Shown here piece by piece: positions 31,400 to 58,719 of a stretch of DNA of 64,000 bases. Below the pieces are notes generated by a model. It was not told where the DNA came from, made no database searches, and saw nothing but the letters and a program-made list of their open reading frames with translations. The position numbers and the translations under genes are program-made. Source of the stretch: Bradyrhizobium sp. 200 (GTDB lineage: Bacteria; Pseudomonadota; Alphaproteobacteria; Rhizobiales; Xanthobacteraceae); the NCBI RefSeq assembly GCF_023100945.1, contig NZ_CP064689.1, forward strand, positions 7,050,001 through 7,114,000. The letters run 5' to 3'. Positions within the stretch are counted from its first letter, which is position 1. Every line of letters begins with the position of its first letter.

Positions 31400-32030
31400 C
31401 GAATTCGACAACATCGAACGGTCCGCCGGCGCTGACAAGGCCGCCGATCTGCGGAGGGCGCTGCACTTCCTGCTGCGCAGACAGTTCGTGTTCGCGGGCG
31501 ATCCCCGCACGGGGATGGTCTACAACATGATCATGGACGGCCGCTTCCGTGACGTCGTGGACGGGTTCTTCGATAGTTGCGGCTACCGGGTCCACCGCGA
31601 TCCAGAAGCCCAGTGGGCCGGGATCCTTGCGATCGACGAGGACGTGCCTCTGCCGCGCATGCGTCTTGACGAGACGATCGTGACGCTCGTCCTCGCGGCA
31701 CACTGGCAGGAGGAGGTCAACGTCGGCGCCGTCGAGGACCGCGCCGTCGTCGTCACGACGCTGAACGCGCTGCACGATCGCTACAAGGACATGGTGCAGC
31801 CCAACGGCGGCAGCGCCATCGGCATCAATCGCTTCCGCGACATCCTGAAGGAAGCTGCCCAGCGCAGCCTGGTCGAGATCGGCGACTACGACAACGAACA
31901 ACAGGACTGCGAAATCCGGATCCGGCCGATGATCAAGCTGATCAGTGGCGGCGATGCCCTCCAGCGGCTCGAGCGGTACGCCCGCAGCGAGGAAGCCAGA
32001 TCGCCCCAACCTGCAGGGGATGAAGCATGA
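31392..32030 (+). CDS. jetB: Wadjet protein JetB (DUF4194-like)
   Basis: A 212-residue winged-helix protein similar to DUF4194 (MukE/KITE-like) partners of SMC complexes: ALHFLLRRQFVFAGDP, FRDVVDGFFDSCGYRVHRDP and RMRLDETIVTLVLAAHWQEE. It starts within jetA and ends in the ATGATG that begins jetC, so all three are translationally coupled. In Wadjet, JetB bridges the JetC heads with JetA. Confidence 0.88.
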   Translation: MLSEFDNIERSAGADKAADLRRALHFLLRRQFVFAGDPRTGMVYNMIMDGRFRDVVDGFFDSCGYRVHRDPEAQWAGILAIDEDVPLPRMRLDETIVTLVLAAHWQEEVNVGAVEDRAVVVTTLNALHDRYKDMVQPNGGSAIGINRFRDILKEAAQRSLVEIGDYDNEQQDCEIRIRPMIKLISGGDALQRLERYARSEEARSPQPAGDEA

Positions 32031-35000
32031 TGGAATTGTGTCATCTCGCCATGGTGAACTGGCACCTGTTCGATGTCGCCGACGTCCCCGTCGCCGGCCA
32101 CATCGGCGTGCTCGGCGAGAACCGGTCCGGCAAGTCGACCATCCTCGACATGGCTCAGGTCGTGCTCACCGGAGGCAACCGCCGCTTCCTGCGCCTGAAC
32201 GCCGTCGCGGGCGATAGCGGCAAGTCGCGTAGCGGCTCCAAGCGTAGCGTCGTCGACTACTGTCTCGGGACCCTGGGCGAAGACCAGCGGCGGCGGGACG
32301 ATGCGCGCACCTACGTCGCGCTCGGCTTCGAGGACACCGAAGGCCTTCGTCCGCCCGTGACAATCGGCATGGCGCTTGAGGCGCGCAAGGCCGACAGTAA
32401 GGAGACGGTCCTCGCCCTGTTCGTCGCCGTGGGGACGATCCTCACCACCAAGGACTTCATCGAGCAGCGCGGAGCCTCGCAGTTCCCGGCCCAATGGGAA
32501 GACGTACGCGCGCGCATCATGACGAGGGTCGGCGAGCAGAACTTCGTCAACCACCGCGACAGGGCGGGAGATTACGTCCGCGAATACATGCGCCATCTCC
32601 TACCTCACGCGCCCTATGGCGAACAGAACGCGAGCGCACTGCAGAAATCCATCGTCAACGCGATGACGCTGGATCACAACCAGACCGCAACCCAGTTCGT
32701 CCGGACTTACATCCTCGAAGACAGTCCGATCGGAATCAAGGACCTGCGCGAGTCGATCCAGACCTACCGGAACATCAGCGAGACCATCCGGAAGATGCGC
32801 CTCAAGCTGGAGGCGCTGAAGGAATTGAGGACGATCCTCGCGACGCTCGAGGAGGCGCTCGAGGCCAAGTTCCGCGAGCAATGGGTGGCCAAGCGAGCGG
32901 AATGGCTCGCGGCTCGGGCGACCAACCGCGACTTCAGGACCAAACTCCAGCTTGCGACCGCGCAGCGCGACGCCGCCGCCGGCGAACTCAAGTTCCTAAC
33001 CGATGACATTAAGGCGATCGACGACGAGATCGAACGGCTCACCGAAGCCATCGCCGAGCACGACGCCAAGACCGGCAGGAAATCGCTGCAGCAGACCGCA
33101 TCGATCGCCAGCCAATCCGCGCAACGGGCCGCGGCCGACTTCAAGGCGCGTCTCGACACGATCCGACGCCTGCAGCCGCTTTGCGCCATGCACGGGCGCG
33201 GCTTGGACGATTTCATCCTCATCGTGGACAGGCTACTCGCCGCGGCCGACGGTGCCGCGGTCGGGGCTGTCTCCGAGGAACTCTCGGCCGCCGAGAAAGC
33301 TCTCGCCACGTCAGGATCGGAACGGCTCGTCAAGGTCGACGAGGTGCGACAAGAAATCATCGCCAAGGCCGCGACGCTACGCACGCAGCGCGACGAGTTG
33401 CTGGGGCGGATCCGGCAGCATTCCTCGGGAGGGGCGCGGGCACATCTCGAGCCGGACACTGAGCGCCTTTGCCAAAGACTCCGACAGAAGGGAATGGCGC
33501 CGCGGGTGCTCTGCGAGCTGATCGAGGTCACGGAACCCGAATGGGCGGGGGCCGCCGAAGCGCTCCTCGGCCGCGACCGCGATGCGGTCTTCGTCGACAG
33601 ACCGGACATCGGCGCTGCGACGGCGATCTTCAAGGATGGACGCCGAGACTTCCGGCGCACTTCCCTAGTGAGCCTAAACAAGCTGGAGCAGTTCAGAGCC
33701 AAGCCGGACCGCGGAACGTTTCCTTCGATCTTCCGCACCGACGATCCGGACGCCTTGTCGTTCATCATGCGCCGGTACGGCTCCGTGCGCCTCGCCGACA
33801 CGCTGGAACAGTTCAACAAGCCGGGCCGTGCGATCATGAAGGACGGCCTCTACGATGACGGCCTGGTGCGGACTCACCGCTCGATCGATCCCTCGCAGCA
33901 CAAGATCGGTAAGGCCGCCCAAGCCAATGCGCTGCGCTCGCTGCAGGACCAGGTGGATGATCTAACAACTTCACTCAGCGAGGCGACGAAGGAGGCCGAG
34001 ATCGCCGACAGCACCTTCATTGCGCTAAAGACGTTGTGCGAGACGACGGCAGAGGATTTGAAGGCCCACGCCACCGTTCATGCCGCCGCCCAGACCGAAA
34101 AGGCCGAGGCGGACGCCAAGCTTGCCGCGCTGGACGGTACCGGCGACGGAGGCCTTCGAGACAAGAAACTGGCACAGCAGCAACTGAAGATACTTAGACT
34201 CGGCGAACAAAAGAGCCAGCAGATCGCCTTCAACAAGCACGACGGCGAAGTGAGGACGGCGAAGAGCCGGCTCGGCGAGGGTGAAAACGTTCCGGGCTCC
34301 GAACTCAATCTGAAGATCGCCTGGTCGCTTTTCGCCAAGAACCAGGCGCTTTACGCCGCGGCCAAGGGCCGGTCCGTGTACCGAACCCGTCTCGACGACC
34401 GCGCGCAGAAGACCGAGGCCGAAAAGCACCGCGCCATCGCCGAGAAGGCGCTAAAGGATGCCGATGCCGCCGACACAGAGCGCGGACGGATCGAACGGCG
34501 CGTGCGCGAATTCCTGGACGGCTATTTCGAAGAGTTCGGTATGCAGTCGCAGATCGGCATCGAGAGCGAACCGCTCCGCGAGGTCAAGCCCTGGATGGAA
34601 CTGCTGATCAACGACATCGAGTCAAACGAACTGCGGCAATACGAACGGCAGGCGCACGACGCCGCGGAGAAGGCCAAGACGCTGCTGCGTGGCGAGTTCA
34701 TCAACGCGCTGACCTCGCGCATCGGCAAGATGGAGCGGGACCTGCAGTCGCTGAACCGCAGCCTGCACATGCATCCGTTCCACAACGAACGCTACTCCTT
34801 CCACCGCACCCAGGTCGTCGAATTCCAGCCGATCCTCAAGATCATCGAGATCGGCAAGACCTCGCCGGAGGCGCTCGACATGCTTTTCCGCGGCCACGTG
34901 CCCGAAGACTTCCCGCACAAGGACACGATCCTCGCGCTGGAAGCGCTGCTGGAGGATCCGGAGAAGGACTTTACAGAGTTCGAGGACTACCGGAACTTCT

Positions 35001-35464
35001 ACACCTTCGAGATCCACATGGAGGACGTCGTGACGGGCCGATCGACCCGATGGGAGCAGCGACGGGGGACGGGATCCGGAGCCGAACAGCAGGTCCCGAT
35101 CTACGTCGCGATCGGCGCTTCGCTGGCCGCGGTCTACGGCAGCGCCGACCGGCGGGCCGGCAAGCCCTCGGGCTTCGCTCTCGCAATGTTCGACGAGGCG
35201 TTCTCGAAGATGGACGGCCGCAACCAGCGTCAGATGATGAGCTTCTACAAGAACCTCGGCCTGCAGTTCGTCATCGCAGCCCCCTTCGAGAAGCGCGTCG
35301 CCGTGCTTGAGCACATGGACACGATCGTCGAGGTCGACCGAATCGGTGAACAGTCCAGAGCGACGGTGGTCTCCCTGAAAGAAAAGGCCAAGCAGGAACT
35401 GATGGCAATCGATCCCGACCTGATCTCCGACGCGGATCTCTCCGTGCGGCTCGCGGCCGAGTAG
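32027..35464 (+). CDS. jetC: Wadjet SMC/MukB-like ATPase JetC
   Basis: A 1145-residue SMC-type ATPase. Walker A is GENRSGKST (30-38); the signature region near SGAEQQVPIYVAIGASLA and Walker B ALAMFDEAFSKMD (about 1050-1062) are at the C-terminus, with long coiled coils between (about 250-480 and 640-850). It extrudes DNA loops using ATP and measures circle size in characterised Wadjet systems. The overlap with jetB is four bases, and jetD begins three bases after its stop. The frame is intact over its full length. Confidence 0.93.
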   Translation: MMELCHLAMVNWHLFDVADVPVAGHIGVLGENRSGKSTILDMAQVVLTGGNRRFLRLNAVAGDSGKSRSGSKRSVVDYCLGTLGEDQRRRDDARTYVALGFEDTEGLRPPVTIGMALEARKADSKETVLALFVAVGTILTTKDFIEQRGASQFPAQWEDVRARIMTRVGEQNFVNHRDRAGDYVREYMRHLLPHAPYGEQNASALQKSIVNAMTLDHNQTATQFVRTYILEDSPIGIKDLRESIQTYRNISETIRKMRLKLEALKELRTILATLEEALEAKFREQWVAKRAEWLAARATNRDFRTKLQLATAQRDAAAGELKFLTDDIKAIDDEIERLTEAIAEHDAKTGRKSLQQTASIASQSAQRAAADFKARLDTIRRLQPLCAMHGRGLDDFILIVDRLLAAADGAAVGAVSEELSAAEKALATSGSERLVKVDEVRQEIIAKAATLRTQRDELLGRIRQHSSGGARAHLEPDTERLCQRLRQKGMAPRVLCELIEVTEPEWAGAAEALLGRDRDAVFVDRPDIGAATAIFKDGRRDFRRTSLVSLNKLEQFRAKPDRGTFPSIFRTDDPDALSFIMRRYGSVRLADTLEQFNKPGRAIMKDGLYDDGLVRTHRSIDPSQHKIGKAAQANALRSLQDQVDDLTTSLSEATKEAEIADSTFIALKTLCETTAEDLKAHATVHAAAQTEKAEADAKLAALDGTGDGGLRDKKLAQQQLKILRLGEQKSQQIAFNKHDGEVRTAKSRLGEGENVPGSELNLKIAWSLFAKNQALYAAAKGRSVYRTRLDDRAQKTEAEKHRAIAEKALKDADAADTERGRIERRVREFLDGYFEEFGMQSQIGIESEPLREVKPWMELLINDIESNELRQYERQAHDAAEKAKTLLRGEFINALTSRIGKMERDLQSLNRSLHMHPFHNERYSFHRTQVVEFQPILKIIEIGKTSPEALDMLFRGHVPEDFPHKDTILALEALLEDPEKDFTEFEDYRNFYTFEIHMEDVVTGRSTRWEQRRGTGSGAEQQVPIYVAIGASLAAVYGSADRRAGKPSGFALAMFDEAFSKMDGRNQRQMMSFYKNLGLQFVIAAPFEKRVAVLEHMDTIVEVDRIGEQSRATVVSLKEKAKQELMAIDPDLISDADLSVRLAAE

Positions 35465-35466
35465 CC

Positions 35467-36673
35467 ATGCCACGCCTTTTCACCGATGCGAAAGAGCTTT
35501 TGGGCGACCTGCTCGACCGGTTCGAGGCCGGCAGGGCGAGCCCGATCGGCTATCCCGATTACGGCGCGTTCGCATCGGTCGTGGCCGCGGACGCCTTTCT
35601 CAAGGAAATCTCGCGCGCCGAAGAGGCCGGTGCGGTGAGCTTGGCGCGCGGACGCGGCCCCAAGCGCAACGAGATCGCGCACGTCCGGCTGACATCGGCC
35701 GAGTCGCTGTATCGGTATCTCGGCAGAACTCCCGCCCCCAAGATCGCAGAGGATGCCGTCGGGCGGCTCGTCGCAGGGCTCGAATTGGATCCTCGCCTGA
35801 AGGACGCTGCGGCCGCCATCGCTGCCGCGTGGAGCAAGGCAAAGACTTGGAACACTTTTACCCCGGCGGGCGCCGATCGCCTGCGCGACGCCTTCGTGCT
35901 CGCGCAGGCGATTCTCGACGGCAAGCACCTGAACGTCGACTACCGGACCTTCTCCAGAAGAGCAGTCGGGCATAGCAAGACCCTCGAACGCCTCGAAAGT
36001 GCGGTCGTCCGCCTTCTCGGTGGCATTATTGATTTTCCGCCGGAAGCAAACGCGGACCGCGCTACGGGCCATCGGCCTCGAACGGTTCGCTCCTCCGTTC
36101 CTGATCGCGGGACAGATCGATCTTGATGGCGCCGATCTTTCGGCGGTCTCGCCACTCTACCTGGGGATCACGCCGAACGAGGCGGACCGCATCCGCTTCC
36201 GAAAGCCGCCGGCCTATCTCCTCACGATCGAGAACTTCGCGAGCTTCAGCAGGCACATCGTCGAAGCCGACCCCGCACGCCTGGGCGCGACCTTGTACGT
36301 CGGCGGGTACCCGTCGCTGGCGACGCAGCAAGCGCTGCGCATTCTCGCCGATGCGGTCCCGGACGGCACGCCGATCTTCCACTGGTCCGACATCGATCCG
36401 GACGGGACCTGGATCTTCCGGACCATCGAGCAAGCGGTCGGGCGCAGCATCAGGCCGCACCTCATGACGCCCGACATCGCGGAAGCCCTCGGCAGCGCCC
36501 CCTCAATGAAGGCGCCTCCCGCGCGATGCCCGCCGGAGTCCGGCATCGCCGCACTGGCCGCCTACTTGTCCGAAGACGGTGCGAAGACTCTGGAGCAGGA
36601 AGAACTCGATCCGGAGCTGCCCGAGATGCTGAGGCCGAGGCAGAAAGTCAGTTCTGACGCGGCAGCCATTTGA
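35467..36673 (+). pseudogene. jetD: Wadjet nuclease JetD, frameshifted
   Basis: JetD is the TOPRIM-like nuclease that cuts the trapped plasmid. The first frame (from ATG 35467) carries the N-terminal domain and reads correctly through RLLGGIIDFPPEA (to about 36045). From about 36055 the match continues one frame over: LRAIGLERFAPPFLIAGQID, the acidic TIEN (codon at 36230) and SDIDPDG (36386-36406), ending at 36673. A single small indel near 36045-36060 explains this. The catalytic half has no good start of its own, so the system is probably inactive unless the shift is a sequence error or is bypassed. Confidence 0.85.
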
Positions 36674-38200: not shown

Positions 38201-39317
38201 TACCCGGAATCATAGCTGAGTGATACGTCGAGCTTTGAAGGGGCGCTGGCGGACTTTTTTCTTGGTCCAGACGAAGGGCTCAGCTTTGACGTTGTAGGCT
38301 TTGATATAGGCATCGATGTGCTGCTCGAGCTGTTTGAGGCTGGTGAATGAGGCGCCGCTCAAGGATTGCCCTTGTAAGATCGAAAACCACACCTCGACCT
38401 GATTGAGCCAGGACGCGCTGGTGGGCGTGAAATGAAATTTCACATTGGGATGTGCCTCGAGCCATTCCTCGTTCTTCTTGTGGGTGCTGAGATTGTCGAG
38501 AATGACGTGAAGCTGGCGGTTCGGAAATGCTGCGGTCACGCGATCCATGAAGTCGAGAAACTCGACCCGGCGACGCCGTTTCGAATGCGTCGCAAGGATC
38601 TTCCCGGTGGCGACTTCCAGCGCCGCAAACAGCGTGGTCGTGCCGTGCCGCTTGTAGTCGTGGCTTTGCCCGGTCAGGGACCTGCCGTTGGGCAGCTTCA
38701 GATAGCCCTGCGCTCTTTCCAAGGCCTGGATCGAGGGCTTCTCGTCCACGCATAGCACGATGGCCTTCCTTGGCGGGGCGACATAGAGGCCAACCACGTC
38801 GGCGGCTTTGGCCGTAAACTGCGGGTCGTTGCTCTCGCACCAGGACTTGCGAGCGGCGAGATCGATCTTGTTGCTGCGCAAGAACCGCCAGACATATTGC
38901 ACGTCGACATCGCCAAGTTCCCCAGCCAGCAGAGGCCCCGTCCAGCGCGCGTACCCGGCGGGAGGCGATTTATCGAGCAACTTCAAAATCCGCTTGTCGG
39001 TGACCTTCGTATAGATCGGCTGCTTGCCCGGCAGAGGCTTGCTTTGCAGACCTTCAAGACCATGATCCGCATAGCGATGCCGCCAAAGGCTGACAATCCG
39101 TGGCTGGACCCCAACCTCCTTGGCGATCGATCGGGTGCTGCGACCGGCCGCTGCCAGCAGCACGATCCGTGCCCGCTTCAAATCGCGCTGCAACGTCACC
39201 GGTGAGCGGCAACGTTCCTCAAGCACCTTGCGATCTTTCCTCGAAAGGTGGACTTCTCTTGCTTCGGGTATCATCCCGATGTTGAATCATGACTCACTTC
39301 CCAGGGAAAGTGGGTAC
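38201..39317 (-). mobile_element. IS630-family insertion sequence, 1117 bp
   Basis: Both ends read GTACCC inward and are flanked by TA at 38199-38200 and 39318-39319, the usual IS630 target duplication. It contains one transposase gene and looks intact. The target TA is part of the TAG stop codon of the HigA-ImmA gene. Confidence 0.88.
38210..39274 (-). CDS. IS630-family transposase
   Basis: A 354-residue single-frame transposase. The N-terminal helix-turn-helix region includes GRSTRSIAKEVGVQPRIVSL. The DDE catalytic residues sit in VLCVDEKPSIQ, HVILDNLSTHK and SWLNQVEVWFSIL. The frame spans almost the whole element and shows no interruption, so it may be active. Confidence 0.95.
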   Translation of the reverse strand: MIPEAREVHLSRKDRKVLEERCRSPVTLQRDLKRARIVLLAAAGRSTRSIAKEVGVQPRIVSLWRHRYADHGLEGLQSKPLPGKQPIYTKVTDKRILKLLDKSPPAGYARWTGPLLAGELGDVDVQYVWRFLRSNKIDLAARKSWCESNDPQFTAKAADVVGLYVAPPRKAIVLCVDEKPSIQALERAQGYLKLPNGRSLTGQSHDYKRHGTTTLFAALEVATGKILATHSKRRRRVEFLDFMDRVTAAFPNRQLHVILDNLSTHKKNEEWLEAHPNVKFHFTPTSASWLNQVEVWFSILQGQSLSGASFTSLKQLEQHIDAYIKAYNVKAEPFVWTKKKVRQRPFKARRITQL

Positions 39318-40540
39318 TAGTGAGACATTTCGTGACTCTTGAAGTGCTTTCGCACCTCCCCTGTACCCACAAAATGAGATAGCAACCGATAATTCCGAAA
39401 CTGATGTCTAACTTTCCCAGCGACAATAGCCGGATGAATCTGAAGTGCATTAGCGAGATTGATCACGCCGGTTGCAGTGGGGTGAAACCGCACATCAGTA
39501 TTCTCCCAAATGGATCGGGGGACGCATGCTTCTTCGACCCATTGGTCTGCTTCATCTTCTCTAGAATCGCGATTCGCTCCAGCACTATCACGCAACGTGA
39601 GATCATCAACAAAGCCAACCTCTGCTGCATTCTCAAGGTGTCTACCGACGTGGGCCAGCTCATGAAGTAAGCAGAACCAGAAATTATCAATCCGGTCATA
39701 ACGCAGCGTTAGCCCAACAACGGGCGTGCCATCCGCCAACTTTAGAGCGGCTCCATCCAGGTGCGTCTTGGAAAGATGCTCTAAGATGATCAGATGAATG
39801 CCGTTCTTTTCAAGAAACTCCTTTGCCAAAAGCGGCCCATTCTCAGACCAGCTCAATTTCGCAACCACCCTAAGGAAATCCGGAGTAACTGTTCCCGGCC
39901 TATATTCCTTGGGTAGCTTTTTCTCTGAGGCTAACGCTAGTAGCTGTAAGCACCATGCATTCAGAGCAAACGGATCGGCCTTTGCATTTGCGCGTGCATG
40001 ATCATTCTTTCTGTACATGGCTTCGACAACTAGACTTGTTCGCCCGGCTCGATGCATGAGGTCGCGCATTATTTCCTCAGCATGATGGGTTACCTTCGGC
40101 CGCTTCGGGAGCCATTTGAGCTTCATCATTTCGGCGACGGGAAATTTGGCCCAATCGATCTCAGACTCTTCAATGTTTCCAACAGAGCTTCCCTTGAGCA
40201 GTACATCGCTCGGAATACCTAGATGCTCGTGAAGAGCGCGCGCCATCGTCATAGTAATTTGGCGCTTCCCGGAAAGCACTTCAGAGACTTTCGCGCGACT
40301 GCCGATAAACGGCACTAAGTCCCGCGCCGAAAGTCCCGACTGCTCCATACGAAATTCAATAGCAGCGACGGGGCTCGGAAAGCCCATAGGAATATTCTTG
40401 GATTCGTACAGCTCAACAAGATCAGCGAGCACATCCAATTCGGTGCCTTCGGGCGTACCGGCGCCCGCTTCCATCAGCTCGGAAATGCGATCTAAAGCCG
40501 CTTCATAGTCAGCCTTGGTTCTAATCGGCTTCACATTCAT
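39317..40540 (-). CDS. HigA-type antitoxin fused to ImmA/IrrE metallopeptidase
   Basis: A 407-residue protein. The HTH domain (about 58-110, with SGLSARDLVPFIGSRAKVSE) is of the Xre/HigA type. The C-terminal domain has the zinc-peptidase motif HELAH (293-297) of ImmA/IrrE regulators. ATG 40540 follows GGAGGAGG and lies one base after the HigB stop codon, so this start is preferred to the one 17 codons upstream. It probably represses the operon and neutralises the toxin, with the peptidase domain allowing controlled loss. The stop codon sits at the IS630 junction and is preserved. Confidence 0.88.
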   Translation of the reverse strand: MNVKPIRTKADYEAALDRISELMEAGAGTPEGTELDVLADLVELYESKNIPMGFPSPVAAIEFRMEQSGLSARDLVPFIGSRAKVSEVLSGKRQITMTMARALHEHLGIPSDVLLKGSSVGNIEESEIDWAKFPVAEMMKLKWLPKRPKVTHHAEEIMRDLMHRAGRTSLVVEAMYRKNDHARANAKADPFALNAWCLQLLALASEKKLPKEYRPGTVTPDFLRVVAKLSWSENGPLLAKEFLEKNGIHLIILEHLSKTHLDGAALKLADGTPVVGLTLRYDRIDNFWFCLLHELAHVGRHLENAAEVGFVDDLTLRDSAGANRDSREDEADQWVEEACVPRSIWENTDVRFHPTATGVINLANALQIHPAIVAGKVRHQFRNYRLLSHFVGTGEVRKHFKSHEMSH

Positions 40541-40541
40541 C

Positions 40542-40835
40542 TCACACCTCCTCCGCATCAATCCCGTCGTACTCCGCATGTGTCCCCACAAAGCGGATAT
40601 AGATGACCCGATAGGGATAATTGATGCTAACGACTAACCGGAATTCGTTCCCTTTGATGTTGAAGACGACTCTGCTGTTCTTCAGAACGCTGCTGTTCCG
40701 GTACTGAGCCTTAACGGCCGACGGTTGATCCCAATCGGCTGCTTCGGCTTCGCGATACCAAGCAAGCAGCGGCTCCTCCGCCTCGGGGTATCGGCACCAG
40801 AAGTCGCGCAGCGTTCCTTTCGCAATGACACGCAT
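40542..40835 (-). CDS. HigB-type toxin (mRNA interferase)
   Basis: A toxin of about 97 residues: MRVIAKGTLRDFWCRYPEAE, then the HigB core VVFNIKGNEFRLVVSINYPY and IYIRFVGTHAEYD. HigB toxins cut mRNA on the ribosome. ATG 40835 gives the family N-terminus; another ATG lies 7 codons upstream. As in most higBA loci the toxin precedes the antitoxin. This is a host-inhibition module, and its origin in defence or plasmid maintenance is unclear. Confidence 0.9.
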   Translation of the reverse strand: MRVIAKGTLRDFWCRYPEAEEPLLAWYREAEAADWDQPSAVKAQYRNSSVLKNSRVVFNIKGNEFRLVVSINYPYRVIYIRFVGTHAEYDGIDAEEV

Positions 40836-50079: not shown

Positions 50080-50335
50080 GGCCTGCAGACGATTGCAGTG
50101 GCTGCCATACCTGTTTCCCTATCGGGAATCGCCGGATCTTGGAAATCCAGATCGCCACCCGGCGGGCGCCGGCCATGCGACAGCCACAGTCGGCCCCCCG
50201 CGATCAACTGCTGCTCCAGCGCGTTTTTTTTTGCTGATGATGGCCGAGCGCAACGGCGGCATAGAGGAGACCGAAAGCCTGCGCGCGCTCGATAGGCCGC
50301 CGCTGTCGCTAAAGCCCTTTTGAGTGAACGGATGT
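50080..50335 (-). pseudogene. GH88-like hydrolase relic
   Basis: On the minus strand DLDFQDPAIPDRETGMAATA matches WDFDDPAIPNAETDTAATAI of the 43.4-44.6 kb gene. The flanking DNA (AGGCCTGCGC, CGCTGTCGCTAAAGCCC) matches too. It is truncated at both ends and runs into the CoA-transferase stop codon. Confidence 0.75.
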
Positions 50336-51523
50336 CACTGAGCCGACGGCGCCTTTGTCGTAGAGATCCTTCAATTGCCGGGCGCCGTAGCCGAGCTCTT
50401 TGAGGATTTCTTCCGTCTGCGCCCCGAGCTTCTGCGGCGGCAAACGTACTTCCGGCACCTCGCCGTCATAAACCACGGGATGGCTGACGAGGGTAATCGG
50501 CGCCCCGGTTGCCCCTTTCACGACCTGGAAGCTCTTGTTGTGAATCACCTGCGGGTCGACGACGACGTCGGAATAGTCGTTGATGCGGGCGTGCCAGATT
50601 CCGCCGGCCTCAAGCAGCGCAAGGCATTCCGATGTCGTGCGCTTGGCGATGTTGGCCGCAATTGCTGCCGATGCGTGATCGCGCCGTCGATAAGCTTCGG
50701 TGTCGGGAACGCGCTGATCGGGGGGAATTGAAAGCACATCTGCCAACACTTCGAGTGATCCGAGCGAGATCGCGATGTGCCCGTCGCCGGTAGCATAGAT
50801 GCCGTAAGGTGCGCCATAATACCATCCTGCGATTGGACCCGGCTGGCGCACGTCGTTTGGTCTTTGCCCGTTGAGATAGCAGGTGAAGGACTCCATTTGA
50901 AGGTCGAGCGCTGCAGACAGCAGGCTGACGTCGACCCGACACCCCTGCCCCGTGCGCGCTTTTCTCACCAATGCGGCCAGGATGCCAGCCGCAAAGAGAA
51001 CGGCGCCGTGATGATCAACTGCCGAAACACCCACGGCGCGAGGGCCGTGCTCGCGGCTTCCCGTGATGGTAGCAAGCCCCGCCAGAGCTTGAACCAAGAG
51101 GTCCTGGCCGGGTCGGTTGACGTACGGCCCGTCCCGGCCATATCCGGATGCTGCGGCATAGATGATGTCGGACTTAATGTTCCTGGCGTCCTCATATCCA
51201 AGCCCAAGCTTGTCGAGCACGCCAGGCCGGAAGTTCTCAGTGACGACGTCCGCAGTTGCGATCAGTTTTTTCGCAACGACAACCGCATCCGGCTTTTTGA
51301 GATCGAGCGTCAGACTCCGCTTGTTGCGATTGCCGGTCAGAAGCAGCATGGATTGACCATCCACCTGCTTGTCCGCCCCACCCCATTTCCGCTGGAAGGC
51401 GCCGTCAGGCGGCTCCACAGCGATCACGTCCGCGCCAAGGTCCGCGAGAAATTGCACACCCATAGGGCCCATCAGGAAGTGGTTGAAGCTGAGGACCCGA
51501 ACGCCCTTGAGAAGATCGGCCAT
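50309..51523 (-). CDS. Class III CoA-transferase (CaiB/BaiF), module B
   Basis: A 404-residue family III CoA-transferase, paralogue of 23776-24969. Features: LADLGADVIAVEPPDGAFQR, RNKRSLTLDL, VTENFRPGVLDKLG, SGYGRDGPYVNRPGQ and Asp141 (GQDLLVQALAGL) as the probable catalytic residue. The last 10 or so residues run into the GH88 relic and look non-native, so the C-terminus may have been altered. It is divergent from the lacI-type gene, with an operator-like palindrome in between. Confidence 0.9.
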   Translation of the reverse strand: MADLLKGVRVLSFNHFLMGPMGVQFLADLGADVIAVEPPDGAFQRKWGGADKQVDGQSMLLLTGNRNKRSLTLDLKKPDAVVVAKKLIATADVVTENFRPGVLDKLGLGYEDARNIKSDIIYAAASGYGRDGPYVNRPGQDLLVQALAGLATITGSREHGPRAVGVSAVDHHGAVLFAAGILAALVRKARTGQGCRVDVSLLSAALDLQMESFTCYLNGQRPNDVRQPGPIAGWYYGAPYGIYATGDGHIAISLGSLEVLADVLSIPPDQRVPDTEAYRRRDHASAAIAANIAKRTTSECLALLEAGGIWHARINDYSDVVVDPQVIHNKSFQVVKGATGAPITLVSHPVVYDGEVPEVRLPPQKLGAQTEEILKELGYGARQLKDLYDKGAVGSVTSVHSKGL

Positions 51524-51594
51524 AACTGTTCTTGCTTGGCTCTCTTTAATTATCTCGCGCCAATGTCGGGGACATTCTGTCCTGTTCGAACTTT

Positions 51595-51610
51595 ATGAAA
51601 TCGTTTTCAG
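51595..51610. promoter_or_regulatory. Putative LacI-family operator between CoA-transferase and lacI-type gene
   Basis: ATGAAATCGTTTTCAG differs from the 25506 site at one base. It lies 72 bases upstream of the CoA-transferase start in the divergent promoter region, the classic place for autoregulation plus pathway control. Confidence 0.7.
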
Positions 51611-51828
51611 GTTTAGCACCCCGATTGGCGGCGTCAAGCCGGTTAAGCGCCGCACATTCCGAGCATGGCCGCCGGCGCGCTCTGCTTGATGTGGCTTGGA
51701 CGCGCACATACTGTTCAATGGGAGCCACGGATCTCCTGCACACTCGCTTGAGATAGCAATCCTCCAGGTAGGTGGTTCACCTCGAACGGATGTTAACAGC
51801 CCGTTATGGGCCAATCCGAGCAGATCAG

Positions 51829-52905
51829 ATGGACAAGAAATCGATCGCCGATCCCAGAGGCCGATCGCAGCCCAGGGTGAAGATCGAGGACGTCGCGAGA
51901 GAGGCGAACGTATCTCCGGCGACCGTGTCGCGGGTTATAAATCATCCAGAAATTGTCAGGCCCGAACTGCGCGACAAAGTGATGCGCCACATCGCCAATC
52001 TCTCCTATACGCCGGACAGCGCGGCCCGGGCATTAAAATCGGGACGCATGCGGACGATCGGCGCGATTGTTCCGACGCTAGCCCTTGGCATCTTTGCCGA
52101 AGGCGTGGAGGCCCTGCAGAACCGCCTAAGCGAAAGCGGCTACACGTTATTCATTGCCAATTCGCAGTATGATCAACGCCGCGAGTTGCAGGAGATGCAG
52201 AACCTCATCGAGCGTGGCATCGACGGGATCGTGCTGGTGGGCGGCTCGCATGGTCGAGAATTGAGAGCTCTGGTAGAGCAAACTGGTGTCCCCGTCATAA
52301 CAACTTACATTTCTAAGGCGGTTGGCGGCATTCCCGCCATTGGCATCGACAACGAACGTGCCACGCGCGAAATGACTGAATTTCTTCTCAGCCTCGGACA
52401 CGTTCGCTTCGGTGCAATTGCCAACATTTCGCCATCGAATGACCGTTCGCGCGCGCGACTCGATGGCATTCAGCGCGCTCTCGCTGAAGCCGGTATCCGG
52501 CTCCAGTCAACTCAAGTCATCAGGGCCGACTACTCGCTCGCGCAAGGACGAAGCGCGCTTCGCCAACTGCTGACCGACCATCCGGACACGACCGCCGTGA
52601 TCTGCACGACCGACACGCTGGCCATCGGCGCGATGTCCGAAGCCCGCAAGATGGGTTTGAGCGTGCCGCAGGCGCTTTCAATTACCGGCTTTGACGACGT
52701 GGAACTGTCGGCACAGGTGGATCCGCCGCTTACGACAATTAGTATTCCCGCTGCTGAAATCGGCCGCGGCGCAGCCGACTATCTCATCAATGCGATCGCG
52801 GGAAGGCCCGTCCCCAAGAGCGTCCTGTTGCCCTACCGGCTGGTGATGCGCTCGTCCACCGCCTCACCACGAACAGCCAAACGCCTGCCGAGGCGGCCAC
52901 CATGA
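51829..52905 (+). CDS. LacI-family transcriptional repressor, module B
   Basis: A 358-residue LacI/PurR-type regulator. The HTH reads VKIEDVAREANVSPATVSRV with hinge PDSAARALKSGRMRTIGAIV, followed by a periplasmic-binding-like sensor domain and GFDDVELSAQVDPPLTTI. ATG 51829 is preferred; a frame from 51772 adds 19 residues before the HTH. Operator-like palindromes flank the gene. The effector is probably a sugar or sugar acid. Confidence 0.93.
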   Translation: MDKKSIADPRGRSQPRVKIEDVAREANVSPATVSRVINHPEIVRPELRDKVMRHIANLSYTPDSAARALKSGRMRTIGAIVPTLALGIFAEGVEALQNRLSESGYTLFIANSQYDQRRELQEMQNLIERGIDGIVLVGGSHGRELRALVEQTGVPVITTYISKAVGGIPAIGIDNERATREMTEFLLSLGHVRFGAIANISPSNDRSRARLDGIQRALAEAGIRLQSTQVIRADYSLAQGRSALRQLLTDHPDTTAVICTTDTLAIGAMSEARKMGLSVPQALSITGFDDVELSAQVDPPLTTISIPAAEIGRGAADYLINAIAGRPVPKSVLLPYRLVMRSSTASPRTAKRLPRRPP

Positions 52906-52943
52906 AGCCTCGCAAGCTAAGCTGGCATGCAGCACGGCTGTTC

Positions 52944-52959
52944 GCGAAAACGGTTTCAG
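52944..52959. promoter_or_regulatory. Putative LacI-family operator upstream of the enoyl-CoA hydratase
   Basis: GCGAAAACGGTTTCAG, whose reverse complement CTGAAACCGTTTTCGC matches the other two sites at 13 of 16 positions. It lies about 40 bases before the start of the module B enoyl-CoA hydratase. Confidence 0.6.
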
Positions 52960-52999
52960 TGTATATGACGCTGATCCGAAACTTGCAAAGGGTGCTACG

Positions 53000-53782
53000 T
53001 TGAACGCCGAGCCTGACCTCATTCTTTGCTCGTCTCCTTTGCCCCATGTGGTCCTTTTGGCGTTAAATAGGGCATCCAAACGAAACGCGCTGAGCAATGA
53101 TTTGATCGCGGAGCTCGGGGCCTGCTTCCGCAAGGCCGCACTCGATGATGAGGTCCGTTGCGTCGTCCTTACTGGCGGCGATGCATTCTTTTCCGCCGGC
53201 GCCGATATCAAGGAAATGCGGCAACGAGGGTTCGAAGCCATCGACAATTACGCGCGACGTTCTGCATGGCGGGACGTTGCCAATTTCCCTAAGCCACTTG
53301 TTGCCGCGGTTGAGGGGATTTGTTTTGGCGGCGGTCACGAGCTCGCGCTGCTGGCCGACATCGTGATCGCCGGTGAAGGCGCCACCTTCGCGCAACCGGA
53401 GATCAATATTGGGATATTGCCAGGCGACGGAGCAACCCAGCGATTGACCCGCGTGGCCGGCAAATCGCTTGCGATGCTCATGATCCTGACCGGAGAACCC
53501 ATCTCTGCGCGCGCAGCCCTTCAGGCTGGGATTGTTGCCGAGGTCACGGCTGACGGCAAGGCGCAGAGCCGCGCCCTCGAAATAGCCGAAATTGTTGCGC
53601 ACAAGCCGCCGCGTTCCACGGAGCTGGCTAAAGCGGCTGTACTCGCCGCCTACCAAACGCCGCTTGATGTCGGTCTAGAGTTTGAACGACAATCCATCAG
53701 GCACGCATTCACGACGTCTGATCAGCAAGAGGGAATGAACGCCTTTTTTGAGAAGCGGTCGCCTAATTATCGGGGGACTTAG
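53000..53782 (+). CDS. Enoyl-CoA hydratase/isomerase family protein, module B
   Basis: A 260-residue crotonase-fold protein: LNRASKRNALSNDLIAEL, AFFSAGADIKEM, GICFGGGHELALLADIVIAG and EINIGILPGDGATQRLTR. The start is TTG 53000 with AAAGG upstream; no ATG fits. It is same-strand with the lacI-type gene, 94 bases downstream, with an operator-like site between. Paralogue in module A at 22536. Confidence 0.87.
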   Translation: MNAEPDLILCSSPLPHVVLLALNRASKRNALSNDLIAELGACFRKAALDDEVRCVVLTGGDAFFSAGADIKEMRQRGFEAIDNYARRSAWRDVANFPKPLVAAVEGICFGGGHELALLADIVIAGEGATFAQPEINIGILPGDGATQRLTRVAGKSLAMLMILTGEPISARAALQAGIVAEVTADGKAQSRALEIAEIVAHKPPRSTELAKAAVLAAYQTPLDVGLEFERQSIRHAFTTSDQQEGMNAFFEKRSPNYRGT

Positions 53783-54709
53783 AAGACAGAAGATCATCCG
53801 AGCTCTGCGCCGGCGGAAACAACAATTGGACTCTCGCTTCCGAAATCGTGCTCCGGAGAACTTCCATCAACTCGCCGAACTCGGCGGAATGTCGTTGTAC
53901 ACCGCAAAGCCGGCGAATGACCGCGGAGGACATCCCACTTCGCTCGGCCAGCTGACCGACCAGTTCAGAATGCCCCTGGACGGCCCGCAGTTTGCGTCCC
54001 GATGATCCTTGATGGGCCATTGTGCCGGCCAGGAAGTTTGCCTTGGTGCACATCCCTCCAAATTCCCAAGCATTCCCGAACGCTACCGCCCAGATTCCTG
54101 AGCGGCGCCGCCCTGCATCGTTACTAGCGGTAAGCGCCGTCTGGCTTTCGCAACCGATGTTCAACCCCGGTAAGCCCGCCCGCCTCGACGCATATTCTAT
54201 GAGAGCTGTATCACGGTCTTCTTGCTGGAGTGATCCATGCACTCTTCTACAAAAGACCTATTGTTCTTCGGGTAGAGACGCGGGTTTCGTACCAAGACAC
54301 ACGGTTAATAACGACTCCTCAGTGCGGCGGTTGTGACATCGCGATCGATGCCGAGCACCTCAACGGCACCGATTATCTGCAGCTCGCCTGCTCCTCCCTA
54401 CGATCCAATCGCTTCGAAGCCGGAGCGGATTGCGCCCACCGGGGAGCGTTAGGCCGACCCTGCAACCCGTCGGTCAAGCCGCAGAGCTTTCGTTATAGTC
54501 AGGCGCATGTCCTTCTTGAGGCTGATTGCGTCATCCGCACTCACGCGGACCGCATACGGTGCACCGGGCCGATGATCTTGTAACCAATCACCGCGACATC
54601 GCAGGCAGGCCATCGTGAAGATTTTCGCCTTGCCGCCGCTGCCGCTGCCGCTGCGGACGTTCAATTCGTGACACCTATTTGGCAAAGCGTGTCGTGCCTC
54701 AGCTAACGT
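53783..54709. other. Decayed region, no gene recognised
   Basis: About 930 bases with open frames on both strands but no recognisable product. Confidence 0.4.
54635..54652. repeat. Hexanucleotide repeat GCCGCT x3
   Basis: Three perfect units in non-coding or decayed DNA. Confidence 0.85.
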
Positions 54710-54725
54710 GTCGCAGATCCAACAG
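54710..54725 (+). promoter_or_regulatory. NifA upstream activator sequence
   Basis: TGT-N10-ACA (TGTCGCAGATCCAACA) matches the NifA binding consensus. It lies about 85 bases upstream of a perfect -24/-12 promoter, the normal spacing. Confidence 0.75.
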
Positions 54726-54809
54726 TTCGGACCGCGGCCGAATGATCAAAACGCGCGCATTTCAAAACCCGCAGCGAATATGCCCGCACGAGCACGCCGC
54801 CTGAGACGC

Positions 54810-54825
54810 TGGCACGGGCCTTGCT
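54810..54825 (+). promoter_or_regulatory. Sigma-54 (RpoN) -24/-12 promoter
   Basis: TGGCACGGGCCTTGCT fits the consensus TGGCAC-N5-TTGC(A/T) at every position. Transcription would begin near 54836, about 130 bases before the PurF-like start. Confidence 0.85.
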
Positions 54826-55242
54826 AAAACGCGAGTAGAACGACGTGCTTCGCGCCGCGCCGGCGGAATACATCTGCGTCAGGGGTCGGACTCGGGACGC
54901 GGGAGTCTTGGTTGAGCACGACACACGCAGTGTCGAATGAACTGTCGTCTTTGAAGGATAAATAGCATGTCTGGTGTGGCTGGCGCTTTTCTGTTGCCTT
55001 CAAGTCACTCCCAGCAGACGGTTTATGATCGGCTCAAGCATATGGTTCCGAAACTTGCACTTCGTGGGCAGGCGGGGTTCGGTCTTGCCGCCTACATGCA
55101 TGGAAAGCGCGTTCAATATACAAGGTCGTCTCAGTCGCCAAGCGAATTGATAAACTTTGACTATAATGAACAGTATGCGAATTTCAGGCCTCGCGCAGCG
55201 ATTGCACACATTAGTAGTCCGTCTAGTGGCTCTGCACAGTGA

Positions 55243-56364
55243 TTATGACTCTTTGGAAGTAGTTGGATAGGCACGGCCCATTTTGGCGCGGGCCTTGTCT
55301 GTTGTGAACATCCATTTGATGCGTGAGCGGGCGGCATTTCGCTTGCGTTCCCAGGCGGCGATTTCGCGGCGCAGCCGCTTGGGATCGTCGATCCTGCGAT
55401 CCAGGCATTGGCCGCGCAGGACGCCGATCTCGATCTCAACCATGTTGAGCCAGCTTGCGTGCTTGGGGGTGTAGTGGAACTCGAGCCGTCGCAAAATCCG
55501 CCTGGCTTCGGCGGGAGGAAACGCCTGGTACAGGGCGCCGGCAGAATGGGTCGATAAATTGTCCTGAATGACCCGGATGGCCTCCGCATCGGGATAATGG
55601 ATATCGACGAGATCGCGCATGCATCGGGCATAGTCTTCCGCCGCTCGCCGTTCGGTGACTTTGACCTTGCGCCAGGGACGATGCACGTCGAGGAAAACGA
55701 AGAGATTGACCGTGCCATTGCGACGATACTCGTAATCGTAACGTTCGAGCCGACCCGGCCTGGCCGGGATGGGCTGACGCGCCTCGCCGATGAGCTGCAC
55801 CGGGCTTTCGTCGAAGCACACCACCGGCCGCTTGGGATCGGGCACCTCGGCGTAGAGATCAAGCACGTCCTCCATGCGGGCGACGTATTCGCCGTCGACC
55901 TGCGGAATGCACCACATGTCCTTGCGCCAGGGCTTGAGGCCATTCTCGGCCAGGCGCCGCCGAACGGTCTCGTGCGACAGGCTCCTGTGTTCGGTGAGCT
56001 TGACCATCGCACCTGCCAGCAGATCGAGCGTCCAGCGGGCGCGGCCTTCCGGGGGACTGGCGCAGGCCGTCGCCACCAGCAGGGCTTCTTCCTTGACCGT
56101 GAGCTTGCGTTCCGCCCCGGGACGCGGGTCGTCGCTCAGCGCCCGCTCCAGATTGCCTTCCACGAAGCGGCGCTTGATCCGGTACACGGTCGAGCCGCCC
56201 ACGCCGACGCTCCGTGCGATCTCCTCGTCGCCGGCACCGGCATCGGCGGCCAGCAAGATCTGTGCTCGCTTGAGCTTGCGCGATGCATGCTTGCCGCCGC
56301 TGAGCAGCGCCCTGAGTTCCGTGCGCTCGATTTGGCTGAGGTCGACCCGATAGCGTACATTCAT
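55243..56364 (-). CDS. IS630-family transposase
   Basis: A 373-residue transposase. The N-terminus has a homeodomain-like HTH (ADAGAGDEEIARSVGVGGST). The catalytic residues sit in RPVVCFDESPVQLIGEAR, AIRVIQDNLSTHSAGALY and SWLNMVEIEIGVLRGQCLD. ATG 56364 is preferred over one 26 codons earlier. The frame is unbroken, so it may be active. Confidence 0.95.
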   Translation of the reverse strand: MNVRYRVDLSQIERTELRALLSGGKHASRKLKRAQILLAADAGAGDEEIARSVGVGGSTVYRIKRRFVEGNLERALSDDPRPGAERKLTVKEEALLVATACASPPEGRARWTLDLLAGAMVKLTEHRSLSHETVRRRLAENGLKPWRKDMWCIPQVDGEYVARMEDVLDLYAEVPDPKRPVVCFDESPVQLIGEARQPIPARPGRLERYDYEYRRNGTVNLFVFLDVHRPWRKVKVTERRAAEDYARCMRDLVDIHYPDAEAIRVIQDNLSTHSAGALYQAFPPAEARRILRRLEFHYTPKHASWLNMVEIEIGVLRGQCLDRRIDDPKRLRREIAAWERKRNAARSRIKWMFTTDKARAKMGRAYPTTSKES

Positions 56365-56407
56365 GGCGTGCCTCCGTGTTCGAAGCACGCACAAACAACT
56401 GAATCGG

Positions 56408-56674
56408 ATGGCCGGCGTGAGTCCTTCGGCAAAAGCCTTCACGCCCAGGCAGGGGCAGTATCTGGCGTATATCCACCTCTACACGCGCCTCCACCGCCGG
56501 CCTCCCGCCGAAGCCGACATGCAGAAATACTTCCGCGTCAGCCCGCCTTCGGTTCACCAGATGGTGCTGACGCTCGAACGACAAGGCTTCATCAGACGCC
56601 AGCCGGCGACCGCACGCAGCATCGAATTGCTCGTAGATCCCAAATGCCTGCCGGAGCTAGAACCGCAAGTCTAA
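56408..56674 (+). CDS. LexA-like winged-helix passenger protein of the IS630 element
   Basis: A protein of about 88 residues with a winged-helix fold resembling the LexA DNA-binding domain: FTPRQGQYLAYIHLYTRLHR, MQKYFRVSPPSVHQMVLTLE and GFIRRQPATARSIELLV. It is transcribed divergently from the transposase inside the same element and may control transposition. ATG 56408 is given; an in-frame ATG at 56363 overlaps the transposase start codon. Confidence 0.7.
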   Translation: MAGVSPSAKAFTPRQGQYLAYIHLYTRLHRRPPAEADMQKYFRVSPPSVHQMVLTLERQGFIRRQPATARSIELLVDPKCLPELEPQV

Positions 56675-58038
56675 CCGGTCATAATCACTGTGCAGGGGTA
56701 CTAGGAGGGAACAGGACGAGAGCGACGTTCAACCTGCTAACAACGATAAAGCCGGTTTCCGCCATTTGGCTATTTCCCTAGACGGCGCCTTGGTCAACGC
56801 TGATGAACTTAGAGAAGAATTGCTCGTCCAAGGGCATCGCTTTGACAGCGAAACGGATGCCGAGCTCTTGCTCAAACTGATTGAGCGCACTTGTGAAGAT
56901 GATTATTGGCGGCATGGTCTTCCGGTGAATCAGGAAAGACTGTTTCGAGAGATCGATAACCGTATCGATGGCGCCGTCAGCGCACTGTTGTTGGATGGTG
57001 AAGGGAATCTGATCGCTTTCCGCAACCGATATGGTCTGCGCCCCCTAGAATTCATGCAAACCGATGACGGCTTTTTGCTTTTTGCTTCGGAAAACTGTGC
57101 TTTTGCCGGACTCCAAGGCAAGGCAGAAGAAATTTTGCCGGGCCACATCAAGTATGTGAACGGAAAAACGGGAGTATGTCTTGATCACTCTCTGTGCGAT
57201 GCTCGACATAACACCAGGCTGTGCGCCTATGAAACGCTTTACCTGGGAAGCCCCAACACGTCGAAACGCCAATCTAATCTCGAAACCCGTTACAATATCG
57301 GGGTTGCCCTTGGTACAATTATTGCGCCAAGACTGGCAGCAGAATTGGGGTCCGCCCCTGTTATCGTTTCTTCTATGCCGCGAACTGGAGGGCCGTATGC
57401 TGATGGTCTGTTTGCATCACTGGCCGAAGGCGGCGCCATCGTCCAACGTCACGAACTCATCGCAACACAACTTTCTCAACGGACGCTTATAGGTTTCGTT
57501 GGCGAGCGCAAATCTCTTATTGCCCAAAAATACCGCGTCGCAGAGAAGGACGTTACCGACAGCACCATAATCATGGCCGATGAAGCCCTCATTCGCGGCG
57601 ATACAAGTCGGGCTGTCACGAATATGCTCCTTGCCGCCGGGGCCAAGGCTGTGCATTGGGCAATCGGTTCACCGCCCATAGTGGCCCCAAATTACTACGG
57701 CATGGGTATCGACACCATGGATGAGTTGGCGTTCTGGCAAACATGGAAGACCCTGCCACCCGAACAGCGCAAGCAAAGCCTGCGTTTTCATAACATCGAA
57801 CCGCAAATGCTCAGGATCATCGAAAGCACAATTGCTGTATCCATCAATGCTGCGGCGATCACTTATCTACCCTTCCAAGTTCTCGTATCCTTGCTTCCGC
57901 AGGGGCATGATGGAATCGATTTGTCGCCGTTTACGTTTGAGATGCCAACCCCAGCGGGGCAAAAGCGCGCGAATAAGAATTTGAACAAGTTAATCGCCGA
58001 TCTTTCCTTCCCAGAATCCGCCGTTGCCTGAGGTCATC

Positions 58039-58719
58039 ATGAAACCTACTCTAGTATTTGATTGGAATGGCACGCTGCTCGATGACGCCGATGCGTTGCT
58101 GAAAGCGATCAATGCCATTCTAGGGCGCTTCGGTCGCCCTGATATCGATATGCCAACTTTTCGGGAACAGTGCGAGCTCCCGCTGTCTGTCCTTTACCGC
58201 AGTGTCGGAATGTCGGAAGGTGAAGCCGCAATCGTGGATAGCGATGGCAGCGCTATTTTTCACGACACCTACGAACCGCTGGCGAGCAAGGCCGATTTGC
58301 GCAAAGGCGCGCGCTGCATTTTAGAAGCGGCACGTCAACAGGCGGTCTCAACGATCGTTCTCAGTAGCTATATAGTCGATCCTCTTCGTTCCCAAATCCG
58401 CAGGCTTGGAATCGACGATTGCGTCAAGGAGGTTCTGGCCTTCGAAAGCCGCGCCACTCAATTTAAAAGCATGAGCAAAGGCGAACGGCTTCGCCTGTAT
58501 ATGCAAGCAAATAATCTGAAGCCCGAGTCAACCTTTATCATCGGCGACATGCCGGTTGAAACGGACATTGCACGCGACCTCGGGCTTATCAGCGTATCCA
58601 TTACCGGCGGATTTGTTTCCGAGTCGCGTTTGCAGGCTGCACAGCCGGATTACATCATTCATGACCATCATGAGCTGCTGCCAATCTTGCAAAGGCACGG
58701 CTTTTTTCGAAACGCATAG
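58039..58719 (+). CDS. HAD-superfamily phosphatase-like hydrolase
   Basis: A 226-residue HAD protein. Motif I is FDWNGTLLDD: the nucleophile Asp8 is present but the usual second Asp is Asn10, as in one HAD clade. Motif II is VLSSY, and motif IV is IIGDMPVETDIARD. A cap domain lies at about 20-90. ATG 58039 follows GAGG and lies just after the PurF-like stop, so the two formed one operon. It would act on a phosphorylated product of the PurF-like step. The upstream IS probably cuts it off from the sigma-54 promoter. Confidence 0.85.
   Translation: MKPTLVFDWNGTLLDDADALLKAINAILGRFGRPDIDMPTFREQCELPLSVLYRSVGMSEGEAAIVDSDGSAIFHDTYEPLASKADLRKGARCILEAARQQAVSTIVLSSYIVDPLRSQIRRLGIDDCVKEVLAFESRATQFKSMSKGERLRLYMQANNLKPESTFIIGDMPVETDIARDLGLISVSITGGFVSESRLQAAQPDYIIHDHHELLPILQRHGFFRNA

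Follow-up and report, generated by a model that had tools for sequence, protein, structure and literature searches.

The 64,000 nt of the Bradyrhizobium sp. 200 genome analysed here (hereafter the window; positions 7,050,001-7,114,000 of NZ_CP064689.1, the genome being a 9.49 Mb single contig) contain an operon of nodulating, nif-bearing Bradyrhizobium that is almost certainly driven by NifA and sigma-54. It comprises a paralog of the amidophosphoribosyltransferase PurF and a gene of the haloacid dehalogenase (HAD) family; roughly half of the loci add a gene resembling 3-hydroxyisobutyrate dehydrogenase. As the best explanation of the whole, which we consider to have about even chances, we propose that the paralog would use ammonia or an amine and that HAD and dehydrogenase would modify its product. 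A sequence-only reading had placed a NifA-type upstream activator sequence (UAS), a perfect -24/-12 box, the PurF-like gene and a coupled HAD gene in this order, and all four were found in their places (Table 1). That the PurF-like gene is split by an IS630-family insertion sequence (IS) went unsaid in the reasoning of this reading, though its suggested test implied it.

The promoter was compared in 31 Bradyrhizobium loci (window, L003-L030, L032, L033), which provide 29 distinct 250 bp upstream sequences. All 31 have a box of the form TGGYAYN5TTGCT, located 52-170 bp before the start of the gene. Among the 29 distinct sequences no other 16-column block within 60 bp is as well conserved as the box, whose mean majority fraction is 0.894 compared to 0.573 for the next one. 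For a second set 60 of 78 listed genomic places were fetched, the other 18 being 11 score-identical copies of fetched ones and 7 partial, broken or own copies. The box was present within 320 bp in 60/60 of them, including all 30 regions that are distinct and new. Among shuffled regions 1/1,200 contained it (mononucleotide shuffles; the relatives are not independent). The operon thus carries the TGGYAY-N5-TTGCW box upstream by which membership in the NifA-RpoN regulon was assessed.

The two sites differ in their conservation among gene-bearing Bradyrhizobium: the box proposed in the sequence-only reading recurs throughout, whereas a perfect UAS is missing from most, being present in just 11/31 loci and 5/30 of the further regions. 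In the window the UAS falls within the 60-150 bp upstream of the box that were taken as criterion. With up to one mismatch it is found in 25/30 regions of the second set; the remaining five, as well as L015 and L016, have no such site. The commonest form elsewhere is a one-mismatch candidate, often as two near-palindromes ~19 bp apart.

Within the window, TGT-N10-ACA alone occurs at chance level (8 seen, 7.3 expected). Five sites with at most one mismatch to the -24/-12 box are likewise ordinary for 64 kb, as 9/100 shuffles reach five; TGGCACGGGCCTTGCT is the sole perfect one. Genome-wide, TGGYACN5TTGCT gives 31 sites compared to 14 for the reversed control pattern, and 21 of the 31 fall within 6.5-7.5 Mb. 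TGT-N10-ACA lies 60-180 bp upstream of 11 of these 31 sites, where 0.44 would be expected (200 dinucleotide shuffles per site). Ten of these 11 combined sites are again located within 6.5-7.5 Mb, including that of the operon and one 170 bp above nifH. The joint occurrence of UAS and box here is not chance.

The family was detected in 68/265 Bradyrhizobium genomes (E 1e-60 or better). nodC exceeds its cut-off in 66/68 gene-bearing genomes compared to 69/197 others (Fisher p 1.3e-21), nifH at E 1e-100 or better is found in 65/68 compared to 94/197 (p 4.9e-14; overlaps tallied by hand), with relatedness ignored in both tests. The two nodC-negative gene-bearing genomes (G184, G188) have nifH, and the three nifH-negative gene-bearing drafts (G037, G108, G133) have nodC. 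Outside Bradyrhizobium the family is rare. A phylum sample yielded 2/398 genomes at E 1e-50, both Bradyrhizobium, with one ordinary PurF set aside (match G622, showing MCGI and VDDSIVRGTTS), and an order sample yielded the same 2 genomes of 397 at E 1e-80. A protein search also found members in Rhizobium mongolense, R. calliandrae, Paraburkholderia, Mycobacteroides/Mycobacterium and the source of P0070.

One family member appears in published expression data. Bphy_7471 (BPHY_RS40825) on the symbiotic plasmid pBPHY02 of Paraburkholderia phymatum is 90% identical to P0068 and 44% to P0003 (residues 1-374). In nodules of a nifA mutant its log2 fold change is -5.75, beside -5.89 for nifE and -4.88 for nifH, as given in Table 1 of PMC8305402. 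An IS5/IS1182 transposase (BPHY_RS40820), a neighbour by locus number, is also down according to the data listed there (-4.06; PMC8305402). This locus, the one from Paraburkholderia in our set, has no box within 450 bp. The nearest box-like site, TGGTATGAGACTTGCA, lies 1,224 bp upstream, is the sole one found in 3 kb and has no perfect UAS within 200 bp. We infer that Bphy_7471 may be expressed by read-through from TGGTATGAGACTTGCA. Data on nifA mutants for a Bradyrhizobium member were not found in the literature searched.

If the promoter match were incidental and the gene outside the NifA regulon, one could account for the scarce perfect UAS, for TGT-N10-ACA alone being at chance in the window and for the P. 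phymatum locus having no nearby box. Yet the box is present in every Bradyrhizobium region of both sets, stands out from its surroundings by conservation and has a NifA-dependent relative in print. This explanation is strongly disfavoured and seems very improbable to us. Control by NifA and sigma-54, as claimed from the sequence alone, is well supported by box conservation, by the association with nodC and nifH and by the nifA-mutant data for the beta-rhizobial relative. We regard it as nearly certain.

Residues of the PurF-like protein were surveyed in the 57 relatives of at least 500 aa out of 77 family proteins. The position of Cys1 in PurF is occupied by Ser in 49, Ala in 3 (two Paraburkholderia proteins and one Mycobacterium protein), Pro in 1 and Asp in 1; Cys does not occur, and in 3 the annotated start lies later. 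Read from the DNA, this position is Ser in 31/31 Bradyrhizobium loci and Ala in L031. The remaining glutamine amidotransferase (GATase) half retains Gly102 (57/57), Asp127 (56/57) and, less strictly, Arg73 (38/57, His in 14), with Asn101 replaced by Asp in 46/57. The loop binding phosphoribosyl pyrophosphate (PRPP) is changed in 57/57 to DEA[LI]I..DTS, with Glu as second acidic residue instead of two adjacent Asp, and the canonical DDS.VRGTT motif is found in 0/77 family proteins. The flexible-loop Lys, the Arg-Thr, the first PRPP-loop Asp and the Thr-Ser pair are kept in 57/57, the loop Gly in 55. Based on these residues, the paralog very likely lacks glutaminase activity. In the pairs tested the gene is under purifying selection, including its phosphoribosyltransferase (PRTase) half.

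Among solved structures PurF comes closest both in sequence (106 bits to 1ao0) and in fold; an N-terminal nucleophile (Ntn) domain together with a type-I PRTase domain was recovered, and the model shows a PurF fold. This resemblance would suit ordinary PurF chemistry, that is glutamine-dependent phosphoribosylamine synthesis followed by dephosphorylation through HAD. However, none of the 57 relatives shows Cys1 (54 have another residue), the PRPP loop is changed in all of them and the scores on the PurF equivalog TIGR01134 (cut-off 350 bits) are far too low: 134, 121 and 112 bits for P0001, P0072 and P0068 (of the 77 family proteins, these three were scored at full length), and 128 bits for the 3' piece in the window. 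A separate, normal PurF of the same genome reaches 504 bits. Ordinary PurF chemistry is hence improbable for this family.

We rather favour a paralog that would not hydrolyse glutamine. In its PRTase half, the nucleophile attacking PRPP or a PRPP-like donor would be free ammonia, which is plentiful at sites of nitrogenase activity, or another amine. The GATase half may stay as a scaffold or amine-binding lid, and HAD and dehydrogenase would act on the product. Use of ammonia or an amine is the best reading because Cys1 is lost, most PRTase residues are kept and the operon is switched on with nitrogenase. PurF Cys1 mutants reportedly keep ammonia-dependent activity (work by Zalkin). Ordinary PurF is able to use ambient ammonia at the PRTase site, as stated in a passage of PMC12017579.

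Besides the uneven UAS, three points weigh against this proposal. This strain has a broken gene, and the copies of a few relatives (L029, L031, G062, G192) are also broken or incomplete. Moreover, the second loop acid is Glu in 57/57, and an Asp of the loop presumably sits in the phosphate-binding part of the PRPP loop; owing to both, PRPP may not be the donor. Another passage of PMC12017579 describes two adjacent Asp as crucial for PRPP binding. Lastly, the prevailing Ser1 and the kept Gly102 and Asp127 leave room for an amidase with a Ser nucleophile.

Such an Ntn amidohydrolase would use Ser1 in place of Cys1, release an amine from an amide donor other than glutamine and pass it to the PRTase half. 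Ser nucleophiles are known in other Ntn hydrolases, and the frequent Ser1 together with Gly102, Asp127 and Arg73 would fit, whereas the Ala of the Paraburkholderia and Mycobacterium proteins, the single Asp and Pro and the exchange of Asn101 do not. We consider it possible, though unlikely. We also assign little probability to a sensory or regulatory role without catalysis, in which a pseudoenzyme derived from PurF would bind PRPP, nucleotides or guanosine tetraphosphate (ppGpp) and act on purine flux or on HAD in bacteroids. It would explain why both PurF active sites and the HAD acid/base position are changed, and ppGpp-bound E. coli PurF structures (6czf) are among the fold matches; the invariant PRTase residues, the purifying selection in this half and the pathway-like arrangement with HAD and often a dehydrogenase downstream speak against it.

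The HAD gene lies downstream in 29/32 loci, the exceptions being L012, L014 and L031. In 27 of these it follows an intact PurF-like gene, with a gap of -4 to 21 nt after the stop codon; the remaining two loci (window, L029) have a broken PurF-like gene. The gap in the window is 7 nt. Motif I (DWNGTL) has the nucleophilic Asp in 111/112 aligned relatives and Asn at position D+2 in 112/112. Asp at D+2 is the usual acid/base of HAD phosphatases, so that of the two phosphatase residues in motif I, nucleophile and D+2 Asp, the second is absent. The Asn is a trait of a HAD subgroup rather than of this pathway, as it also occurs in relatives of <40% identity from other alphaproteobacteria. The nearest solved structures match too weakly to tell the substrate. 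The dephosphorylation of a phosphoribosyl product, put forward in the sequence-only reading, is thus unsupported as written, given the missing Cys1, the changed PRPP loop, the low TIGR01134 scores and this Asn. A second shared gene with 6-phosphogluconate / 3-hydroxyisobutyrate dehydrogenase domains (two copies tested) is near in 17/32 loci and downstream of the PurF-like gene in 16 of these; it was not found within ~9 kb in close relatives of the window.

In this strain the PurF-like gene is interrupted by the IS630 element and the enzyme is not made whole; expression of HAD is probably reduced by polarity. Transposase, terminal inverted repeats (89% matching) and TA target are all present, as expected for IS630. 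The insertion is probably recent, since two further full copies elsewhere in the genome are identical.

Table 1. Features of the operon (window coordinates).
Feature	Position	Strand	Remarks
UAS pair (NifA type)	54690..54724	+	perfect TGT-N10-ACA TGTCGCAGATCCAACA at 54709-54724; weaker tandem copy 54690-54705 with two TGT/ACA mismatches, 19 bp upstream
Sigma-54 -24/-12 promoter TGGCACGGGCCTTGCT	54810..54825	+	sequence match; kept in relatives
Shine-Dalgarno-like GAAGGA	54953..54958	+	8 nt ahead of the PurF-like ATG
PurF-like 5' piece	54967..55242	+	N terminus MSGVAGAF, runs into IS element; 79% identity to residues 1-87 of P0003 (intact)
IS630-family insertion sequence	55226..56701	.	TA at both flanks, 27-nt terminal inverted repeats; interrupts PurF-like gene
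IS630 transposase	55243..56442	-	NF033545 247.5 bits, cut-off 100
Small passenger open reading frame within IS element	56363..56674	+	LexA-type DNA-binding domain, PF01726 30 bits, cut-off 23.7
PurF-like 3' piece	56704..58031	+	GATase remainder, PRTase half (DEALIRGDTS), C-terminal part; first listed start 56766
HAD-family gene	58039..58719	+	motif I DWNGTLLDD; 226 aa from ATG (231 aa from TTG 58024); PF13419 43.1 bits, cut-off 23.8

An intact nifH is located at 7,302,076, and copies over the cut-offs are found for nifA (6,775,549 and 7,274,675) and nodC (6,787,178 and 7,286,104). As these positions surround it, the window lies among symbiosis genes. A second nifH match is split over two frames (7,146,752-7,147,571). 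Among named species, the closest copies of the gene come from B. australiense, B. murdochi and B. archetypum, at 92-96% across the 3' piece. A single contig of B. zhengyangense (L018/L027) carries two PurF-like copies ~35 kb apart, each with a -24/-12 box, and seven plasmids of peanut strains have two gene places each. The proteins P0072 and P0073 from Mycobacteroides/Mycobacterium are 42% identical to the 421-aa 3' piece and show the DEA(L/I)IxxDTS signature; at the Cys1 position they carry Asp and Ala, respectively. Their genomic context was not recovered: 10/10 plasmid records at E 1e-40 or better were Bradyrhizobium, and there was no match in viral contigs.

Upstream of the operon (50309-53782) are genes for a CoA-transferase, a LacI-type regulator and an enoyl-CoA hydratase; similar genes stand beside it in close relatives (e.g. 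L003-L007, L033), not all three in each. The regulator was considered as a FixV-like link and rejected, as a word search of the main text of PMC3538637 gave no 'amidotransferase'. Elsewhere the window carries Wadjet type-I defence genes (29873-36673; JetA 793 bits, JetC 1719 bits, and a JetD fragment confined to profile positions 195-390 of 395), a PD-Lambda-2_B match over nearly the whole length (39317-40591, 474 bits) and a protein that weakly resembles BilD and E1-E2 ubiquitin-like defence enzymes (3858-5264, 61.8 bits).

The earlier remark that no described pathway matches agrees with the literature searched, where the gene appears in one expression study only. In the open-licence literature, outside of which most subscription papers lie, the Bphy_7471 entry was the sole finding; none of the listed papers dealt with the family, with its chemistry or with its promoter. 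By word search, the main texts do not contain 'purF' (PMC3538637), 'amidotransferase' (PMC6515984; PMC5979394 on an rpoN mutant of P. phymatum; PMC9927569 on B. arachidis bacteroids) or 'phosphoribosyl' (PMC4926349). A further lead, blr2038 of B. diazoefficiens as a NifA-regulated glutamine amidotransferase, was wrong, since blr2038 is fixA.

Going further, one may tentatively imagine that a special enzyme in bacteroids places ammonia from nitrogenase directly on a (phospho)ribosyl-type donor, bypassing glutamine and the feedback-controlled PurF, and that HAD and dehydrogenase convert the product into a nodule compound of aminosugar or nucleoside type that is exported; we hold this to be rather unlikely in its full form. 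Part of Bradyrhizobium and some Rhizobium and Paraburkholderia would then turn fixed nitrogen into a symbiosis-specific product by a glutamine-independent route. If our main proposal is right, part of the NifA regulon would be a dedicated biosynthetic branch of bacteroids built on a PurF that no longer requires glutamine. It would offer a direct handle on NifA targets of so far unassigned function and on the fate of fixed ammonia other than export. The proposal is testable, as cultured Bradyrhizobium such as B. guangxiense and sp. BWA-3-5 have the intact operon. Moreover, the family signature (no Cys1, DEA(L/I)IxxDTS) allows annotators to drop the name 'amidophosphoribosyltransferase' used in several database entries.

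Compared to known systems, the paralog shares its two-domain fold with PurF (TIGR01134; 1ao0, 1ecb, 8w7d) over most of the length but differs in Cys1, in the mostly exchanged Asn101, in the PRPP loop and in a changed C-terminal part. Beta-lactam synthetase and carbapenam synthetase are glutaminase-dead relatives of class II GATases; their second domain is an adenylating synthetase, whereas that of the paralog is a phosphoribosyltransferase. With DWNGTL-type HAD hydrolases (phosphoglycolate-phosphatase-like, PF13419) the HAD protein has the Asp nucleophile, the GD motif and a similar length in common. On the profiles of phosphoglycolate phosphatase, however, it scores at most 37.3 bits against cut-offs of at least 180. 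The Bphy_7471 locus likewise holds a family member, NifA-dependent in nodules, but the gene is truncated there and no HAD was found within 9 kb. In being under control of NifA and RpoN, the operon resembles the NifA2 targets of M. loti R7A and nrgABC of B. diazoefficiens, accessory genes of the NifA-RpoN regulon. Most of the M. loti targets are not required for fixation according to the abstract of PMC3538637.

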